The translations under genes and the position numbers were made by a program. The notes beneath the pieces were generated by a model, which worked only from the letters and a program-made list of their open reading frames with translations, was not told the origin of the DNA and made no database searches. Positions 9,180 to 17,037 of a DNA stretch of 64,000 nt are shown piece after piece. The DNA is from Variovorax sp. J22G73. GTDB taxonomy: Bacteria > Pseudomonadota > Gammaproteobacteria > Burkholderiales > Burkholderiaceae_C. Each line of letters opens with the position of its first letter. Within the stretch, counting starts at the first letter, position 1. Where the stretch lies: positions 310,001 to 374,000 of the forward strand of contig NZ_JASZYK010000005.1 in NCBI RefSeq assembly GCF_030317035.1. Reading direction: 5' to 3'.

Positions 9180-10475
9180 ATGCCTACAGAGACCCGCTAC
9201 GAGAACTTCGACCTGCGCATCTGGCGCGAGGGCGACCGCTACCTGGCCGAGGTGACCAACTCGCCGGCCGGGTCGTCGGAGCGCGAAGTGCTCCAGTGGC
9301 CCTTCGGCGGCCCGGCCGACCGCGTGCTGCTGCTGGAGCTGGAGAACGCGGTGCTCAAGAGCCGGCTCACCCTGCGCGGCGGGCCCATCATCTCGCCCGA
9401 GGAAAAAGTGCTGCGCGACTTCGGGGCCGAGGTGTTCAAGGCCGTGTTCAGGGACTCGCGCTCGGTGTCGGCCACCTACACCGGCAGCCGCGCCCTGCTG
9501 CTCGGCAAGGACGACACTGGCCTGCGGCTGAACCTGCGCATCGACCCGCCCGAGCTGGCCTGCCTGCCGTGGGAGTACGTGTTCGACGAGGCGGGCAAGC
9601 CCGACCACTACCTGTGCCTGAGCAGCAAGTCGCCGCTGGTGCGCTACCTGCACAGCACGCAGCAGCGCGCGCCGGTGCGCGGCCAGGGCCCGGTGCGCGT
9701 GCTCGGCATGATCGCCAACCCGGGCGGCACCTGGACCTGGCTGGACACCGAGGCCGAGCGCCGCCACATGGAAGAAATCCTGCGCGCGCCGGGCCTGCAG
9801 GTGGAGTTCAACTGGGTGCTGCGCGCCACGCCCGACGGCCTGTTCGACATGATGCAGCGCGGGCCCTGGCACATCTTTCACTTCATCGGGCACGGCGGCA
9901 CCGACCGCTACACCGACGCCGACGGCCAGACCCGCAGCGAAGGCTTCGTCGTCATGGACGACGGGCTCGGCGGCCCGGTGAAGGTGTCGGCCTCGCGGCT
10001 GGCGGACATCCTGGCCGATGGCGATGTCGACCTGGCGGTACTCAACTGCTGCGAGAGCGCGCAGGGCAACGCCTCTTCCAGCGTGGGCGCGGCGCTGGTC
10101 GAGCAAGGCGTGCCGATGGCCATCGCGATGCAGTTCGCCATCACCAACACGGCCGCGTCGCGCTTCTCGGAGCACTTCTACAAGTCGCTCACCAAGGGGC
10201 AGACGGTGGAGCGCGCGCTGACGGTGGCGCGCAAGTACATCCGCATGAACTCGGACGCGGAGTGGGCCATTCCGGTGCTGTTCACCCGCTCGGGGTCGTT
10301 CGCGCTGTTCGATGCGATGCCGGACGCGCCGATGCAGCAGGAGGCGCTCGGTGTACTCGGGACTGTCGGTACGGTCGGTACGGTCGGCGCAGCTCGCGCG
10401 GTGCCCGCCGCCGCCCCGCCCGCGCGGATGAGCCTGGCGCAGTCCAAGCTGCGCGAACTCTGGGGCGACCGATGA
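9180..10475 (+). CDS. CHAT-domain protein 1 (caspase-like cysteine protease)
   Basis: A 431-residue protein. Residues 1-110 are an alpha/beta region I do not recognise. Residues about 165-375 form a CHAT (caspase HetF-associated) domain with the His in FHFIGHGGT (His238) and the Cys in AVLNCCESAQG (Cys291), the expected clan CD dyad; VPMAIAMQFAITN is the following conserved CHAT strand. There is no signal peptide or TM segment, so it is cytoplasmic. The tail holds a short GTVGTVGTVG repeat coded by a 9-base DNA repeat (10365-10387). ATG 9180 follows GGGGG; a TTG at 9174 is an alternative. It overlaps the membrane-protein gene by 4 bases. Substrate unknown. Confidence 0.85.
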   Translation: MPTETRYENFDLRIWREGDRYLAEVTNSPAGSSEREVLQWPFGGPADRVLLLELENAVLKSRLTLRGGPIISPEEKVLRDFGAEVFKAVFRDSRSVSATYTGSRALLLGKDDTGLRLNLRIDPPELACLPWEYVFDEAGKPDHYLCLSSKSPLVRYLHSTQQRAPVRGQGPVRVLGMIANPGGTWTWLDTEAERRHMEEILRAPGLQVEFNWVLRATPDGLFDMMQRGPWHIFHFIGHGGTDRYTDADGQTRSEGFVVMDDGLGGPVKVSASRLADILADGDVDLAVLNCCESAQGNASSSVGAALVEQGVPMAIAMQFAITNTAASRFSEHFYKSLTKGQTVERALTVARKYIRMNSDAEWAIPVLFTRSGSFALFDAMPDAPMQQEALGVLGTVGTVGTVGAARAVPAAAPPARMSLAQSKLRELWGDR

Positions 10476-12124
10476 CGCTGTGGTCGGTCAGCATGGTCTT
10501 CGCGGCCGGACTGACGGTGTTGATGGCCTCCGCCGGGTTCAACCGCCCGAGCTGGTCGCGCAGCTACACCACCGCGCGGCGCTACTGGACGGCCGTGGCC
10601 GTGCATGCCGGCCTGTACCTTCTGATGTTCATGCTGTGCTACGGCGTGCTGCTGCGCATCATGGGCGCCGATGCGCCACGGGGGTCGGGCGCGCGCACGC
10701 TGGTGCTGTGGCTGGCGCTGGCGCTGGTCGCCTGCCTGCGGGCGATTGCGCCGCTGTCTTTGCGGGTGCGCGCGCGGCTGCATGGCGCGGCCGGCATTCC
10801 GCAGCAGGCGCTGTCGCTCGCCAAGTTCCTGGCCGAGATGCCCTTCCAGGCCGGCAGCGACGTCCAGGCCCAGGCCCGCGACATGCTGCGCATGCGCGGC
10901 ATCGACGCCGAGCGCGACTGGCTGCCGCTGGCGCAGCCGCTGCACCAGCAGATGCGCAGGGCCGCGGAGCTTTTCATCCAGCTGCGCGGCTGGGACCAGG
11001 AGCGCGCGCTGGCGCGCTACACGCGCGAGGTGACGCACGAGCTCTACCGGCTGCGCCAGCGCTTCGACCGGCTCTCGTTCCGGGTGTCGCGCACGCTGGC
11101 CTCCATCGAGCAGCTGGGAGAAATCAAGGTCATCGCCGCCGAGCACGGCATCGACGGCAACAAGGAGCTGGACGACCGCCTGCGCCACCTGGTGAGCGAC
11201 ATGATCTCGGACGTGTGCGAGGACATCGGCCTGTTCTACCGCGACGCCTGCGTGCTCGCCGCGCGCGGCGTGCTGGCCACCAACGCGCGGCAGGCCGGGC
11301 GCAACGCGGCCCTGGAGCGCATGGGGTTCACGGCCTGCGCGAGCGAGCCCGACAACCTCGCGCGCGCCTTCGGCTACGCGGCGCTGTTGATGCTGGCGGG
11401 CCTGTGGATCTTCTTCGTCGTGCTGCCGCCCGACGACGGCGCGGGGCTGTCGGTGGGCCAGCGCATCGCGGTGATCCTGGTGATCGTGCTGGGCACGCTG
11501 GCCATCGCGATCCTGCCCAAGTTCTATTTCGGGTTCGCGAGCGCGGGGCTGCACCGCCGCACGCCGCCGGGCTTCGTGGTTGCGGCGGGGGCGTGCGCGC
11601 TCGGTTTCTCGGTGCTGGTCAATCTCGCGGCGGGCGCGCTGATCTACGGCGGCATGCCGGGCGCGCTGCAGCGGCTGGCGGAGGCCGCGTCCACCCTGCC
11701 CTCGACCTTCCTGACCGGTGCGCTGGTCGCCTGGCTCACGCAGGACCACCGGTGGGCGGCGGTGGACGACGCCCGCACGCGGCGCGGCCTGGACGCCGCG
11801 TTGTTCGGCGCCGCCTGGCTGCTCTCGGCGGTGGTGTCGCGCGGGTTCGCCGCCGACACGTTCGCCGACTTCTGGACCTGGCGAACGCTGGCGGCCGTCG
11901 TCGCGGGCCTGGTGCTGGGGGCGGCGATGGGCGCGGCCATTCCGGAACTGGCGCGGCGCCGGCGCGAGCCCCCGGCGCGCGACACCGCAGCGGCATCGGG
12001 CGAACCGAAGGCGCTGAGCCTGCCGGTGCCCCCCATCGCCGCGTACGAGCTGAACCTGCCCGACAGCGTACTCACGCCGGTGCCCGTGGCGCAGGCCGCA
12101 GAGAAGTCCGAACTGGCCCGCTGA
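10472..12124 (+). CDS. Polytopic membrane protein of the CHAT cassette (unknown family)
   Basis: A 550-residue protein I do not recognise. About three TM helices occupy residues 3-95. A charged, helix-rich cytosolic region of about 200 residues follows (LRMRGIDAERDWLPL, REVTHELYRLRQRF, LVSDMISDVCEDIGL). Five or six more TM helices occupy roughly 305-500, then a Pro/Ala-rich tail. The start ATG 10472 overlaps the CHAT 1 stop (ATGA), so translation is coupled. The architecture, a large soluble domain between two TM bundles, would suit a membrane sensor, scaffold or pore controlled by the CHAT proteases. That role is inference. Confidence 0.75.
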   Translation: MTLWSVSMVFAAGLTVLMASAGFNRPSWSRSYTTARRYWTAVAVHAGLYLLMFMLCYGVLLRIMGADAPRGSGARTLVLWLALALVACLRAIAPLSLRVRARLHGAAGIPQQALSLAKFLAEMPFQAGSDVQAQARDMLRMRGIDAERDWLPLAQPLHQQMRRAAELFIQLRGWDQERALARYTREVTHELYRLRQRFDRLSFRVSRTLASIEQLGEIKVIAAEHGIDGNKELDDRLRHLVSDMISDVCEDIGLFYRDACVLAARGVLATNARQAGRNAALERMGFTACASEPDNLARAFGYAALLMLAGLWIFFVVLPPDDGAGLSVGQRIAVILVIVLGTLAIAILPKFYFGFASAGLHRRTPPGFVVAAGACALGFSVLVNLAAGALIYGGMPGALQRLAEAASTLPSTFLTGALVAWLTQDHRWAAVDDARTRRGLDAALFGAAWLLSAVVSRGFAADTFADFWTWRTLAAVVAGLVLGAAMGAAIPELARRRREPPARDTAAASGEPKALSLPVPPIAAYELNLPDSVLTPVPVAQAAEKSELAR

Positions 12125-12150
12125 AACGAAGACAGCAAAGAAAGAACCCG

Positions 12151-12498
12151 ATGCCGCTCTACCTGCACCAATGGCGCTACAAGGACGAGCAGATCCGCCA
12201 GATGCTCGAGAACGAAGAGTCATCGGACCGCGCGGACGTCGTGCGCACCGCCATCGAGGCCTTCGGCGGCACGCTGCACGGCTTCTACTACGCCTTCGGC
12301 GACTGCGACGGCGTGGCCATCTCGGAGTTTCCCGACGAGGCCACCGCGCTCTCGTGCGTGATGCTCATCTACGGCCAGGGCCGCATCCAGAACGTGCGCA
12401 CCAGCACGCTGTTCACGCAGCAGGCCACGCTGGCGGCCGTTCGCCAGGCGCAGGACGTGCTGCATCCGCCGCAGGCCGGCGACCAGCCTTCACCGTAG
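12151..12498 (+). CDS. GYD-domain protein
   Basis: A 115-residue protein beginning MPLYLHQWRYKDEQIRQM and continuing with a ferredoxin-like beta-alpha-beta pattern: FGGTLHGFYYAFGDCDGVAI, FPDEATALSCVMLIYGQG, VRTSTLFT. This matches the GYD family of small alpha/beta proteins of unknown function; the name motif is degenerate here (GDCD). No catalytic residues can be assigned. It starts 26 bases after the membrane-protein gene and ends 13 bases before CHAT 2, so it is part of the operon. Possibly a small ligand- or partner-binding subunit. Confidence 0.75.
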   Translation: MPLYLHQWRYKDEQIRQMLENEESSDRADVVRTAIEAFGGTLHGFYYAFGDCDGVAISEFPDEATALSCVMLIYGQGRIQNVRTSTLFTQQATLAAVRQAQDVLHPPQAGDQPSP

Positions 12499-12511
12499 GA
12501 GGCACACCCCA

Positions 12512-14737
12512 ATGCTGATGCCCGCCATCGACCTGGACGCCGGCATGAGCGCCGGCGCCGTGCTCCAGCGCCTGGCGCTCAACGGCTACTGGCTGGACGC
12601 CGCGCAGGACGCGGCCCGCGCGCGCATCACGGCAGTGGCCGCGCGCGTGGGCCGCCCCATCGAAGAAGTCGCTGCCAGGCTGGCCCGCAATGCGGACGAC
12701 TGCGGCGCCGCCATCCGCCGCCAGTGGGGAACCCACGTGCTCTGGTACGCACGCGAACTGCGCGAGGTGCTCGTCGCGTGCAGCCATGCGCCGCCGGCGC
12801 TGCCGCTGCTCGACGTGCTCGACCTGCACGAGCCGGACAGCCAGCCGCCGATCGACATCGGCGCCGGCGCGGTCGTCATGCGCAACGGCGTGACGCTGTT
12901 GAACGGCGAGCCCGTGGGCGTGTCGCTGCGCGTGGCCGCGGACGCGTTCGTGCTGCCGGCACGCGCGCCGGCACCCGCCGACATGGCGCTGCGCGGCGCC
13001 GATCCACTGGCCCCGGCCACCGCCGGTGCCGCGCGGCCGACGCCCACGCCCATGCCCACACCGGTGGCACCGCCCGCGGGACCGATCAAGGCCTGGCCTC
13101 GCATCGAAGCCCCCGAAGCCAAGGCCGCGGGCGAGGTGTTCGAGGTGGTCGTCGGGTTCGGCGCGCAGGCGCAGGCCCAGGTGAGCGGCGCGGCGGTCGA
13201 CCTGCCCTTCTCGGCCGAGGTGCAGGCGCTCGACCTCCAGGTCGAACTGTCGGCCGGCCCCGGCGTGCAGGCGCCCGAAGGCTGGAGCCGGCCGCTGCGC
13301 GTGACCGCCGCCGACGTGGCCACGGCGCAGGTCAGCTTCAAGCTGGTCGGCGTGGAACCGGAGAACCCGGCGCAGCCCTTTCTCACCATGCTGGAAGTGC
13401 GCTACGTGCTGGGCGGCACGGTCTGCGGCACCGCCTCGCGGGCGCTGGCGATCATGCCCGCGGCGCACGGCGACCGGCTCGATCCCCGCCCCCTCGGCCA
13501 GCCCTGGCAGGCCATGCCCGCGGCCGCCACGCCGGTCGCGCTGGTGGCCGATGCCAAGGTGCCCGACCTCACCCTGGACATCGGCAAGCCCGACCGCAAC
13601 GCCGCCAGCGGCCAGTACGTGTGCCGCCTCATCAGCCCGCATGCCTTGGCCACCGCCACCGGCCCCTTCGACATGGACCTGGGCCAGGACGCCAAGACCT
13701 TCGCGCGCTCCGTCGTCGAGGAGGTGCGCCAGTACGGCAACAGCGCCCTGCTGGCCACCGCGCTGGAGAGCCTGGGCCGGCTGGTGGCCGAGCGCCTGCC
13801 CGGCGAGTTCTTCCAGGCGCTGGCCGAGCTGAGCGGCCGGCTGGCGCCGGAGCCGGTGTCGCTGCTCATCGTGAGCGCCGAGCCCTACGTGCCCTGGGAG
13901 CTCGCGTGGATGGACGCGCCGCTGGACGCCGCGCGCCCCAGCTACCTGGGCGCGCAGACGCTGGCCGGCCGGTGGCTGCGCGACAGCGCCCCGCCGCCAC
14001 TGGCGGCGAATGCCGCGGCACGGCCGGCCGCGCACCCCATCGCCTCGCTGCAGGTGCGCAACATGGCGACCATGGCCGCGTGGTACAGCGCGGCCTCGGG
14101 CCTGCGCAAGCTGCCCAAGGCCGAAGCCGAGGTCGAGGCGCTCAGCGGCAGCTACCCCGGCGTCACGCTCAAGGCCACGGCCGAGGGCATGCGCGACCTG
14201 CTCAACGCGACGCTGCAGGGCAAGTCGGGCCCTGTCGCGGTCGAGGCGGTGCACCTGGCGGGCCACGGCGACTTCGACCCCACGCGGCCCGACGGCTCCG
14301 CGATGTTCCTGCAGGACGGCGCGCCGCTGCGCTCCACGCTTTTTCGTGCCGCCAAATACGGCGGCGAGCGGCAGCCGCTGCTGTTCCTGAACGCCTGCAT
14401 GCTGGGCATCGGGGGCGAGCTGCTGGGCGACATGGCGGGGTTCCCCGGCAACTCGCTTCGCGGCGGTTTCGGCGGCGTGCTGGGCGCGCTGTGGGAGGTG
14501 GACGACGACGTCGCCCACGACATCGCCATCGAGTTCTGGCGACGGGCACTGCCTGCGGCAACCGAGGCTTCCGACGCATCCGCGGTGCCCGCAGCGCCAG
14601 CGGAAGGCGAACCGGTGGGCGCCATCCTGCGCGACCTGCGCGCCCGATACCCGGGCACGGCGGGCACGCCCATCCCGACCTTTCTTTCGTATGTGTACTA
14701 CGGCCACCCGCGGCTGACGCTGCGGCGCGCGCCCTGA
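12512..14737 (+). CDS. CHAT-domain protein 2, large multidomain
   Basis: A 741-residue protein. The N-terminal 110 residues are helical; a Pro/Ala-rich linker (about 150-195) leads to a beta-rich region (205-315), then a C-terminal CHAT domain (about 445-735). The dyad is His585 in VHLAGHGDFD and Cys629 in LLFLNACMLG, followed by RGGFGGVLGALWEVDD, the conserved strand after the Cys. AGGAGG lies 9 bases before ATG 12512. It shares only the CHAT core with the first CHAT protein and has a different N-terminal half, suggesting two proteases with different inputs or a cascade. No signal peptide. Target unknown. Confidence 0.85.
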   Translation: MLMPAIDLDAGMSAGAVLQRLALNGYWLDAAQDAARARITAVAARVGRPIEEVAARLARNADDCGAAIRRQWGTHVLWYARELREVLVACSHAPPALPLLDVLDLHEPDSQPPIDIGAGAVVMRNGVTLLNGEPVGVSLRVAADAFVLPARAPAPADMALRGADPLAPATAGAARPTPTPMPTPVAPPAGPIKAWPRIEAPEAKAAGEVFEVVVGFGAQAQAQVSGAAVDLPFSAEVQALDLQVELSAGPGVQAPEGWSRPLRVTAADVATAQVSFKLVGVEPENPAQPFLTMLEVRYVLGGTVCGTASRALAIMPAAHGDRLDPRPLGQPWQAMPAAATPVALVADAKVPDLTLDIGKPDRNAASGQYVCRLISPHALATATGPFDMDLGQDAKTFARSVVEEVRQYGNSALLATALESLGRLVAERLPGEFFQALAELSGRLAPEPVSLLIVSAEPYVPWELAWMDAPLDAARPSYLGAQTLAGRWLRDSAPPPLAANAAARPAAHPIASLQVRNMATMAAWYSAASGLRKLPKAEAEVEALSGSYPGVTLKATAEGMRDLLNATLQGKSGPVAVEAVHLAGHGDFDPTRPDGSAMFLQDGAPLRSTLFRAAKYGGERQPLLFLNACMLGIGGELLGDMAGFPGNSLRGGFGGVLGALWEVDDDVAHDIAIEFWRRALPAATEASDASAVPAAPAEGEPVGAILRDLRARYPGTAGTPIPTFLSYVYYGHPRLTLRRAP

Positions 14738-14754
14738 ACGGAGGTTTTTCAACC

Positions 14755-16320
14755 ATGGCAGCCACTCTCCTGAACGGAACCAACCAGGCCGTGTCCATCG
14801 GCCCCGGCTATGCCCTGCGCACGCCGGGCTTCACCGGCGCGGCCGAGCTGCGTGCCGGCGGCACCACCGCCACCACGCGCGCCAGCGTGCGCGGGCTCGA
14901 CCAGGGCATGGACGCGCTGGACGCCGCGCTGGCGGCGGCCGACGTGTCGCAGGTGCGCCTGATCGACCTGACGCTCAAGCCCGCGGCGGCGGGTGGCACC
15001 ACCGGGCGCAGCGCCGGCGCGGCCGCCGGCGACATCGAGCTCGAGGTGCCCGACCTGGGCGACGACACCGGCCAGCTGGTGCTGTCGGTCGACGACGCGG
15101 GCGCGCTGCATTGGCACTTGCCTGAGCCTGCAACACCGACAGCAACAGCGCCATCGTCGGGGTCGCCATCAGCGCCGTCGGCTCCGGTATCGCGCGGCGG
15201 AGGCGGCGGCGTCAAGCGCTTCCGCATCCCGGCGCAGGTGGCGCCGCCACCGGCGCTCGCGTCCGACAGTGGCACGCAGCGCAGCGTGCTCGGCCTGGTC
15301 GGGCGCAAGCTGCTGAAGGTGCTCGTGTATCCGCTGACCGACCCCGTCCTGGGCGCCGTCGGTGAGCACTTCGTGGGCCAGTGGGAAGACAAGAACCGCC
15401 CCTACGCCGTGCGCAGCTTCACCCCGCAGGACTACCAGGGCGCGCCCGACGTGCGCCACACGCCCGACACCCTCGCCGCGCTGGCGGCCCAGGGCCCGGC
15501 GCTGCTGTTCGTGCACGGCACCTTCAGCACGTCGAGCGCGGGCTTCGGCGCGCTGCCGTCGCCAACGCTCGACGCCTTGCACCAGCGCTACGGCGGCCGC
15601 GTGATCGCCTTCGACCACCCCAGCGTGAGCGTGGACCCCGACGCCAACGTGCGGTGGCTGCTCGGGCAGCTGCCGCCCGGTGGCATCGACCTCGACATCG
15701 TGTGCCACAGCCGCGGCGGCCTGGTCTCGCGCGTGCTGGCCGAGACGCCGCCCGCGCCGGGCATGGACACCGCCCGCGCCCGGGTGCGCCGCCTGGTGTT
15801 CGGCGCCGCGCCCAACAACGGCACGGTGCTGGCCGACCCCGACCACATGGTGGCCATGGTCGACCGGCTGACCACGCTGCTCGCGCTGTTCCCCACCGGC
15901 CCGGTGACCGAGACGCTGGAGGCGCTGGTCACCGTCGTGAAGGTCATTGCGCACGGCGCGCTCAAGGGACTCGACGGGCTGGCGAGCATGCGGCCGCAGG
16001 GCGAGTTCCTGGGCCGGGTCAATGCCGGCACGGCCGCGCCCGCCGACTACTTCGCCATCGCCTCGAACTATTCCGCCATCGACACCGGCCTGCGCGGGCT
16101 GGTGGCCGGCGGCACCGACCTGCTGCTGGACACCGTCTTCGGCGAGGCCGGCAACGACCTCGTGGTGCCGACCGAGGGCGTGTTCCAGACGAACGGCAGC
16201 AGCCGCTTTCCGCTGGACGCAGGAAGGGTGCTGCTGTTCGAGCCGAGAGAGGGTGTGTCGCACACCACGCTGTTCCAGCACGAGAAGGTGTCTGAGCGGC
16301 TGTTGGCGTGGCTCGCTTGA
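14755..16320 (+). CDS. Alpha/beta-hydrolase (lipase/esterase-like) of the CHAT cassette
   Basis: A 521-residue protein. Residues 1-240 are non-catalytic: a Gly/Ala-rich start, an acidic stretch (DLGDDTGQLVLSVDD) and a Ser/Pro/Gly linker (125-152). The hydrolase domain spans about 245-520, with oxyanion-hole motif LLFVHGTFSTS (253-), nucleophile elbow VCHSRGGLVS (Ser319), probable Asp468 in GNDLVVPT and His503 in GVSHTTLF, an intact triad. The fold resembles PGAP1/lipase-like hydrolases. It has no signal peptide, so it acts inside the cell. GGAGG lies 10 bases before ATG 14755 and it is the last gene of the cassette. It could be the effector acted on by the CHAT proteases. Confidence 0.8.
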   Translation: MAATLLNGTNQAVSIGPGYALRTPGFTGAAELRAGGTTATTRASVRGLDQGMDALDAALAAADVSQVRLIDLTLKPAAAGGTTGRSAGAAAGDIELEVPDLGDDTGQLVLSVDDAGALHWHLPEPATPTATAPSSGSPSAPSAPVSRGGGGGVKRFRIPAQVAPPPALASDSGTQRSVLGLVGRKLLKVLVYPLTDPVLGAVGEHFVGQWEDKNRPYAVRSFTPQDYQGAPDVRHTPDTLAALAAQGPALLFVHGTFSTSSAGFGALPSPTLDALHQRYGGRVIAFDHPSVSVDPDANVRWLLGQLPPGGIDLDIVCHSRGGLVSRVLAETPPAPGMDTARARVRRLVFGAAPNNGTVLADPDHMVAMVDRLTTLLALFPTGPVTETLEALVTVVKVIAHGALKGLDGLASMRPQGEFLGRVNAGTAAPADYFAIASNYSAIDTGLRGLVAGGTDLLLDTVFGEAGNDLVVPTEGVFQTNGSSRFPLDAGRVLLFEPREGVSHTTLFQHEKVSERLLAWLA

Positions 16321-16356: not shown

Positions 16357-17037
16357 TCAGCGCAGCACCGCGCCGCGCCAGACCACCAGCCCCAAGACCG
16401 TGAGCTGGTCCGCATCGACCGTCGTTTCTTTGTAGTCGGCGTTGTCCGCCAGCACGCGCACCTGGCCGCCGATGTGCACCTGCAGGCGGCGCAGCAGCAG
16501 GTTGCGCGTGTGGTCGGTGATGAGGTGGATGCGCCCGTCGGTGATCTGGTTGTGCCGCGTGTCGATGAGGATGATGTCGCCCGAACTCAAGGTGGGGCGC
16601 ATCGCGTCGCCCGGCATCTTCATCGCGGCGAGGTGCTCGCTGTCCAGGTCCTGGTCGCGCAGCCATGCGCTGCAGAAGGCCTGGGCGCGAAAAATCGTCG
16701 GCATCGAATCACCGAAAACGCCCGGCTCCTTGCCGGCGAGCCGGTACAGGGGCAGCGTGGTCATCGTCTTGGGAAGGTCGGTCGGCGCCCAGGGCTGCGC
16801 GCGCCCTGTGCCGCGCATCAGCCATTCCAGCGACACGTCCGCCGCATCGGCGAGCGCCACCAGCACCCGGCGCGATGGCTCGCTGCCCGCGAGGTAGCGC
16901 GTCAGCGCGCTGTTCGACACCCCCACGCGGCGCGCCAGCGTGCTCGCATTTCCCACCTTCGCAATGATCTGGCGCAGCCGCGTCGCGAAATCTTCGTCGA
17001 TGGCGGGCAAATCAATATCAGCTGAAGCAGTGCTCAT
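16357..17037 (-). CDS. XRE-family regulator with degenerate S24 (LexA/CI-like) domain
   Basis: A 226-residue regulator. The N-terminal HTH (about 18-75) contains STLARRVGVSNSALTRYLAG. The C-terminal half has the S24 fold, with GDIILIDT and VRVLADN strands. The catalytic Ser of GDSM is Ala here (MPGDAMRPTL, Ala145), and the Lys of the family motif LLVKRLQ is Arg (LLLRRLQ, Arg183). Self-cleavage is therefore not expected, and the domain probably serves dimerisation or ligand sensing. It is convergent with the CHAT cassette (36 bases between stops) and divergent from the flavin monooxygenase gene. A perfect palindrome lies 24 bases upstream of its start. Confidence 0.85.
   Translation of the reverse strand: MSTASADIDLPAIDEDFATRLRQIIAKVGNASTLARRVGVSNSALTRYLAGSEPSRRVLVALADAADVSLEWLMRGTGRAQPWAPTDLPKTMTTLPLYRLAGKEPGVFGDSMPTIFRAQAFCSAWLRDQDLDSEHLAAMKMPGDAMRPTLSSGDIILIDTRHNQITDGRIHLITDHTRNLLLRRLQVHIGGQVRVLADNADYKETTVDADQLTVLGLVVWRGAVLR

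Follow-up and report, generated by a model that had tools for sequence, protein, structure and literature searches.

Among the closest described relatives of the locus presented here are conflict systems predicted by Kaur et al. (2020, eLife 9:e52696, PMC7159879), cited from excerpts of that paper. There, whenever a VMAP protein with a caspase-superfamily domain is present, an alpha/beta-hydrolase gene adjoins it, and EACC1 forms a pair of membrane protein and caspase in further predicted conflict systems. The TCAD9 legend of Altae-Tran et al. (2023, PMC10910872), also taken as an excerpt, names that domain as associated with vWA-MoxR-VMAP. We describe a five-gene cassette of Variovorax sp. 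J22G73 (genome of 8.4 Mb, assembly GCF_030317035.1) that lies at positions 9180-16320 of the window, by which we mean the whole stretch of 64,000 nucleotides analysed (contig NZ_JASZYK010000005.1, positions 310,001 to 374,000 of the forward strand). The cassette encodes two CHAT proteases (CHAT1 and CHAT2), a membrane protein, a GYD-domain protein and a DUF7379 alpha/beta-hydrolase. With a probability of roughly 0.4, it is one horizontally moving operon that works as a two-step protease switch over a lipase-like effector.

All five open reading frames (ORFs) are on the plus strand and were confirmed to the exact base, and the 4-base overlap and the successive gaps of 26, 13 and 17 bases are exactly as an earlier note on this DNA, made from the sequence alone, had claimed. 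The genes and their parts are as follows.

9180..10475, +, CHAT1, CHAT protease of 431 amino acids (Pfam CHAT, E 5.8e-23)
9891-9893 and 10050-10052, +, catalytic codons of CHAT1, His238 and Cys291
10472..12124, +, membrane protein of 550 amino acids, no Pfam family (hydropathy and AlphaFold2 model mabd3722d4127)
12151..12498, +, GYD-domain protein of 115 amino acids (Pfam GYD, E 8.1e-17)
12512..14737, +, CHAT2, 741 amino acids, composed of TCAD7, a linker and middle region and CHAT (Pfam TCAD7, E 4.1e-19; CHAT, E 3.4e-13)
12512-12922, +, TCAD7 of CHAT2, residues 1-137
14264-14266 and 14396-14398, +, catalytic codons of CHAT2, His585 and Cys629
14755..16320, +, DUF7379 alpha/beta-hydrolase of 521 amino acids (Pfam DUF7379, E 1.2e-55)
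15709-15711, 16156-16158 and 16261-16263, +, triad codons of the hydrolase, Ser319, Asp468 and His503

The membrane protein is the sole component without a known family, and its alignment was the anchor for a co-conservation scan of the genome collection. The scan gave 44 pattern stretches, six of which encode a relative by tblastn, while the other 38 do not. The six loci (L045-L050) belong to two Variovorax (V. paradoxus MEDvA23, L045; Variovorax sp. CF079, L046), Paraburkholderia piptadeniae, two Pelomonas (L048 and L049, close kin of each other) and one unclassified Burkholderiaceae bacterium. The earlier note had named joint conservation elsewhere as a point on which its proposal would stand or fall, and all five families are present on one strand in 6/6 of these loci, a figure that is conditional on the membrane protein as anchor. 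The order CHAT1, membrane protein, GYD, CHAT2, hydrolase is kept in L045, L046 and L050, and the hydrolase is placed ahead of the other genes in L047. In the two Pelomonas loci a single polypeptide of about 1,064-1,084 residues, depending on the start chosen, contains both the hydrolase and the CHAT2-type domain; the ORF of this fusion is listed under L034, which shares its contig with L049. Over the 15 non-independent pairs of six loci, window included, the identities within the five families correlate with one another at 0.77-0.98, which is what joint inheritance predicts. Judged from these comparisons, the five genes form a real, co-inherited unit.

The tie between hydrolase and CHAT extends well beyond the cassette. 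Strong DUF7379 matches (E <= 2e-13, each open frame counted once and that of the window excluded) in a 100-genome sample of the window's family amount to 23 frames in 19 genomes, and in 17 of the 23 a CHAT match stands in the same frame. The six frames lacking it are those of L036, L037, G090 (on a 7.3-kb contig), G030 C1, G005 C39 and G058 C1:124265. The protein of L035 carries DUF7379, TCAD7, DUF7363 and CHAT in one chain, and corresponds to the window's hydrolase and CHAT2 fused. Such fusions mark the hydrolase as a direct partner of CHAT, and DUF7379 hydrolases are strongly linked to CHAT on the evidence of frame content. They also lend support, as do the conserved pairs of CHAT1 and membrane protein, to the earlier note's view that the hydrolase and the membrane protein are natural partners of CHAT proteins; the fusions elsewhere and the TCAD7 domain of CHAT2 are features that the note did not contain.

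Other arrangements of hydrolase and protease were seen beside these. L092:6437-12457 encodes 2,006 residues with DUF7379, an LCAT/PGAP1-type hydrolase region and CHAT, and a caspase-domain gene adjoins it (L092:2079-5066). Of the 100 genomes in the family sample, 15 have frames of 1,920-2,118 codons in which DUF7379 and CHAT are combined. At L100:7196-10442 (genome G915) a CHAT gene, a gene for a 277-residue protein of no family (4-base overlap) and an LCAT-family hydrolase gene stand in a row; the same stretch has peptidoglycan-binding, methylase, transposase and weakly lysozyme-like genes, and may be a prophage with this row as possible cargo. The proteins at L036:6287-8602 and L037:9928-12348 are 40% identical to each other, and both adjoin DUF7379 hydrolases. 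They have a possible transglutaminase-like part, seen by eye and by weak profiles (a sub-cut-off match in L036), and the protease type may have been swapped in these two loci.

The active sites named in the earlier note are present as it gave them and are conserved. His238/Cys291 is kept in 9/9 aligned CHAT1 proteins, His585/Cys629 in 9/9 aligned CHAT2 proteins and Ser319/Asp468/His503 in 11/11 aligned hydrolases, in alignments that take in the window and two near-identical Pelomonas loci and leave out the CHAT-like proteins of L036 and L037. CHAT1, CHAT2 and the hydrolase are, by sequence, intact enzymes. The Pfam assignments are above the curated cut-offs: CHAT (PF12770) scores 82.2 bits in CHAT1 and 50.1 bits in CHAT2 (cut-off 24), TCAD7 69.2 bits (cut-off 24) and DUF7379 (PF24096) 188.9 bits (cut-off 33). 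CHAT1 has a Pro/Ala-rich linker, a sub-cut-off Peptidase_C25 match in Pfam besides CHAT, and a C-terminal AQxxLRxL segment common to the four proteins of alignment A2, and its residues 1-115 match nothing in Pfam. CHAT2 gave sub-cut-off Pfam matches to RNase_II_C_S1 and wHTH. For the five proteins together, NCBIfam returned nothing but a match of CHAT1 to HetF, far below the cut-off, and PADLOC returned weak CHAT-type matches only, plus BovA at E 0.016 for CHAT2. The nearest match of the CHAT1 profile in the PDB is 8tl0, a "CHAT domain-containing protein" (E 1.8e-16), which we take to be SAVED-CHAT; CHAT2 alone found no useful match there. The hydrolase profile is nearest to the putative lipase 7x2p (E 6.7e-5), the esterase BlEst2 (1.2e-3) and, weakly, a PlaB phospholipase (0.014), and the single hydrolase sequence found no match in the PDB. 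Two CHAT-linked hydrolases of other loci match LCAT. A further strong CHAT gene, the third in all in this genome, lies at G000:C4:97677-98471 (L001) in a 745-codon frame (E 7.6e-64).

Hydropathy and the model of the membrane protein indicate about three N-terminal helices, a hydrophilic helical block of about 190 residues (about 100-290) and some five to six more transmembrane helices. The mean predicted local distance difference test score is 71.8 and the predicted template-modelling score 0.44, and the tail, residues 497-550, is modelled with low confidence. Neither Pfam, PADLOC nor NCBIfam gives the protein a family at E 0.1. The earlier note had described a polytopic protein with a central cytosolic domain; the polytopic character holds and the centre is hydrophilic, while the cytosolic placement is presumed, by the positive-inside rule, because of the high arginine content of the block.

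CHAT1 and the membrane protein recur together in more distant genomes. The CHAT1 profile matches 19 of 398 phylum genomes at E <= 1e-15; at E <= 1e-30 it matches 5 of 198 genomes from G694's family. At locus L085 of G694, outside the window's class, 12 bases separate CHAT1 from the membrane protein (E 4e-11), and a DUF7379-DUF7363-CHAT protein of 1,121 residues follows after a further 85 bases. In G647, G1083 and G1092, which are of one genus, CHAT1 in a 609-codon frame is followed by the membrane protein, and both CHAT1 relatives scanned by Pfam, those of L056 and L101, contain TPRs. A relative of the membrane protein at L057:8580-10706 (G708) has a C-terminal TerB-like domain (E 8e-5, sub-cut-off).

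These associations suggest how the cassette might work. The membrane protein would sense envelope disturbance, or anchor the complex, and would activate CHAT1, which is placed at the membrane protein because of the recurring pair. CHAT1, directly or through the GYD protein and TCAD7 as adaptors, would then act on CHAT2, which would be cleaved or released. CHAT2 would be the direct partner and control of the hydrolase, the two being encoded by two genes here and by one polypeptide in relatives; it is because of these fusions that the hydrolase is placed under CHAT2. Proteolysis would free or activate the hydrolase, and its attack on membrane lipids would lead to a growth stop or cell death. The purpose would probably be self-sacrifice or defence against stress. 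Of this scheme we infer the order of the cascade, the lipid substrate, the sensing by the membrane protein and the outcome of growth arrest or death. A bolder form of the proposal is a self-sacrifice system in which a membrane-sensing CHAT protein starts a second, lipase-bound CHAT protein, the executioner being a lipid hydrolase and not a pore and the cascade ending in membrane lipolysis; this we consider doubtful.

The cassette is mobile and patchily distributed, to judge from its edges and its occurrence. Six genes neighbouring it in the window were searched in seven loci, and the only matches were two TctC-like genes, members of a large family, in L046. The Variovorax genome G184 has no match to the membrane protein and does have the block downstream of the cassette; the homology starts at window position 16357, 37 bases past the hydrolase stop. 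Such changing neighbours suggest gain and loss. The membrane protein was found in 3 of 100 Variovorax genomes, window's included, with a fourth match, in G116, being weak (58 residues, E 9.6e-4) and uncounted. In the order sample of 349 genomes it was found in the window's own only. Matches were obtained in five genomes of a 299-genome phylum sample: the window's, G647 and G708 (strong) and G802 and G756 (weak), and the weak matches in G116, G802 and G756 were left out of our counts. The gene that marks the right edge is:

16357-17037, -, S24/HTH repressor-like regulator, convergent with the cassette

This regulator was considered as a cassette member and rejected, having no match in the seven loci searched and standing with the same downstream genes in the congener that lacks the membrane protein. 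A 93% identical copy is present in one Variovorax without the membrane protein, and at E <= 1e-30 only two of 100 genomes, the window's among them, have a match. It is one of four window flanks scanned, with a phosphoenolpyruvate (PEP) mutase, TctC and PrpR.

On plasmids, CHAT2 found six records at 26-28% identity, and the membrane protein found no match in the same plasmid collection. In the three of the six records that were opened, from Bradyrhizobium and Agrobacterium conjugative plasmids, the CHAT2-like genes adjoin TIR, caspase or toxin-antitoxin genes, company that favours a conflict role for the cassette. The stretches L058, L059 (on a pTi plasmid) and L060 have, variously, TIR, caspase, S8 peptidase, metallophosphoesterase, HipA-domain and AbiE-type genes near the CHAT2-like genes. 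Viral contigs scanned with the CHAT1 and CHAT2 alignments gave 54 and 55 pattern stretches and zero relatives. At L050:4263-4939, about 4 kb upstream of the cassette of that locus, there is a PIN-domain gene, ahead of which stands a small frame that resembles AbrB/VapB by eye; the two are probably a toxin-antitoxin pair.

A number of observations weigh against a single five-gene switch that acts in conflict, beyond the dependence of the six-locus count on its anchor. No GYD match was found in 19 kb at L085, because of which we regard the GYD protein as probably accessory. At L056, L101 and L102, CHAT1 and the membrane protein lie in stretches that match neither GYD nor CHAT2 nor the hydrolase, and L057 has no CHAT1 or CHAT2 match within 19.9 kb. 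From these looser relatives, two couples appear to be the older ones, CHAT1 plus the membrane protein and the hydrolase plus CHAT, and GYD and TCAD7 appear optional. Three of the 23 DUF7379 frames (G030 C1, G005 C39 and G058 C1:124265) show no link to CHAT, and the neighbours of the hydrolases in L036 and L037 have no Pfam CHAT match and appear by eye to have lost the His/Cys pair. The lipase assignment has weak PDB matches of the hydrolase as its basis. Ten proteins flanking the six loci comprise eight of metabolic, transport or regulatory type, one PIN-domain protein of toxin type and one of no family, and PADLOC found only weak matches to a LuxR-type regulator among flank proteins; enrichment near defence genes, to which the earlier note had looked, is not borne out in this small sample.

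The ordinary neighbours and the absence of any convincing PADLOC match make a serious rival of an envelope- or lipid-stress module for repair or remodelling, in which the protease pair would tune the hydrolase for lipid turnover and nothing would be killed. It would also accord with the empty plasmid search for the membrane protein, with the viral contigs devoid of CHAT1 and CHAT2 relatives, and with a gene set in which Pfam, PADLOC and NCBIfam recognise no toxin or immunity family. Against it stand the patchy distribution, the gain and loss suggested by the changing neighbours, and the plasmid relatives of CHAT2, which keep the company of TIR, caspase or toxin-antitoxin genes; we think this explanation rather unlikely. 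The cassette might instead consist of two adjoining but unrelated pairs, one of CHAT1 and the membrane protein and one of CHAT2 and the hydrolase, sharing no pathway. This possibility draws on the pairs of CHAT1 and membrane protein that exist without the hydrolase and on the hydrolase-CHAT fusions of L035 and L092, where the membrane protein is missing. It is very unlikely given that the units are together in 6/6 Burkholderiales loci despite changing surroundings, and again in L085 of another class.

The cassette might also be a modular part of the published conflict network, with TCAD7 coupling CHAT2 to a vWA-MoxR-VMAP system encoded elsewhere and with the hydrolase and CHAT representing the VMAP couple of peptidase and hydrolase. 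TCAD7 is indeed present in CHAT2, TCADs are described as associated with that network (TCAD9 legend, PMC10910872), and the excerpts of PMC7159879 always place an alpha/beta-hydrolase gene beside VMAPs with a caspase-superfamily domain. But CHAT2 holds the only TCAD7 match of the genome, and the fused proteins of L048 and L085 gave none. No MoxR, vWA or VMAP was found in the five genes, the four window flanks or the ten flank proteins of the six other loci, and VMAP-C (PF20028) has no match genome-wide in the window's genome, G000, a result to be read with the equal silence of 14 control genomes. A TCAD is present, but none of the three partners is among the neighbours scanned; we therefore do not claim membership of the network, and we judge this reading unlikely. 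The two-step protease switch over a lipase-like effector is the reading that we prefer.

To our knowledge, the substrate of most bacterial CHAT and caspase-like proteases is not known. The hydrolase, tied to CHAT by fusion in many relatives, names a concrete candidate substrate or partner, and in two classes CHAT1 is accompanied by a membrane protein whose family has no Pfam entry. Among the known effectors of phage defence are lipases activated by nucleotides, in cyclic-oligonucleotide-based antiphage signalling systems (CBASS). If the proposed cascade is true, the cassette would have a lipase switched by proteases instead of nucleotides.

The comparison with known systems places the cassette close to several of them. 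It resembles SAVED-CHAT of type III CRISPR, where excerpts of PMC11229360 describe a CHAT protease as part of a proteolytic cascade; the resemblance of CHAT1 (PADLOC PDLC02016) is over the CHAT part only, the match covering model positions 146-270 of 498. Unlike SAVED-CHAT, the cassette combines its proteases with a membrane protein and a hydrolase and has no SAVED match, and no cyclic-oligoadenylate machinery was found among the neighbours scanned. TPRs are found by Pfam in neither CHAT protein of the window, unlike TPR-CHAT/Craspase, and are found in the relatives of L056 and L101. No gasdermin match was found among the five proteins in Pfam, PADLOC and NCBIfam, the presence of a bacterial gasdermin model in these libraries being unconfirmed, and the sole unnamed protein is polytopic. 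The likeness to EACC1-caspase lies in a membrane-protein gene beside a caspase-clan gene, for which the excerpts propose that membrane sensing activates the peptidase; EACC1 has a single helix and a large choice of effectors, unlike the predicted eight to nine helices and the hydrolase here. The single proteins of the DUF7379-(TCAD7)-DUF7363-CHAT type (L035, L085) have the same hydrolase and CHAT domains, whereas the window has this chain as two separate genes, in company with those for CHAT1, the membrane protein and GYD. The VMAP ternary systems likewise encode a caspase-clan peptidase and an alpha/beta-hydrolase together, with peptidase-controlled deployment of effectors proposed in the excerpts (PMC7159879). 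A TCAD-type domain is a further likeness of the cassette, one not named in the excerpted main text of that paper, while the cassette differs in having two CHAT proteins, a GYD protein and a polytopic membrane protein that matches no Pfam family. The earlier note knew of no characterised system with this set, and our literature searches agree as to the set, but not as to the pairing at its core: caspase-type peptidase with alpha/beta-hydrolase is, on the excerpts of PMC7159879, already published in predicted conflict systems, and the cassette is a variation on it.

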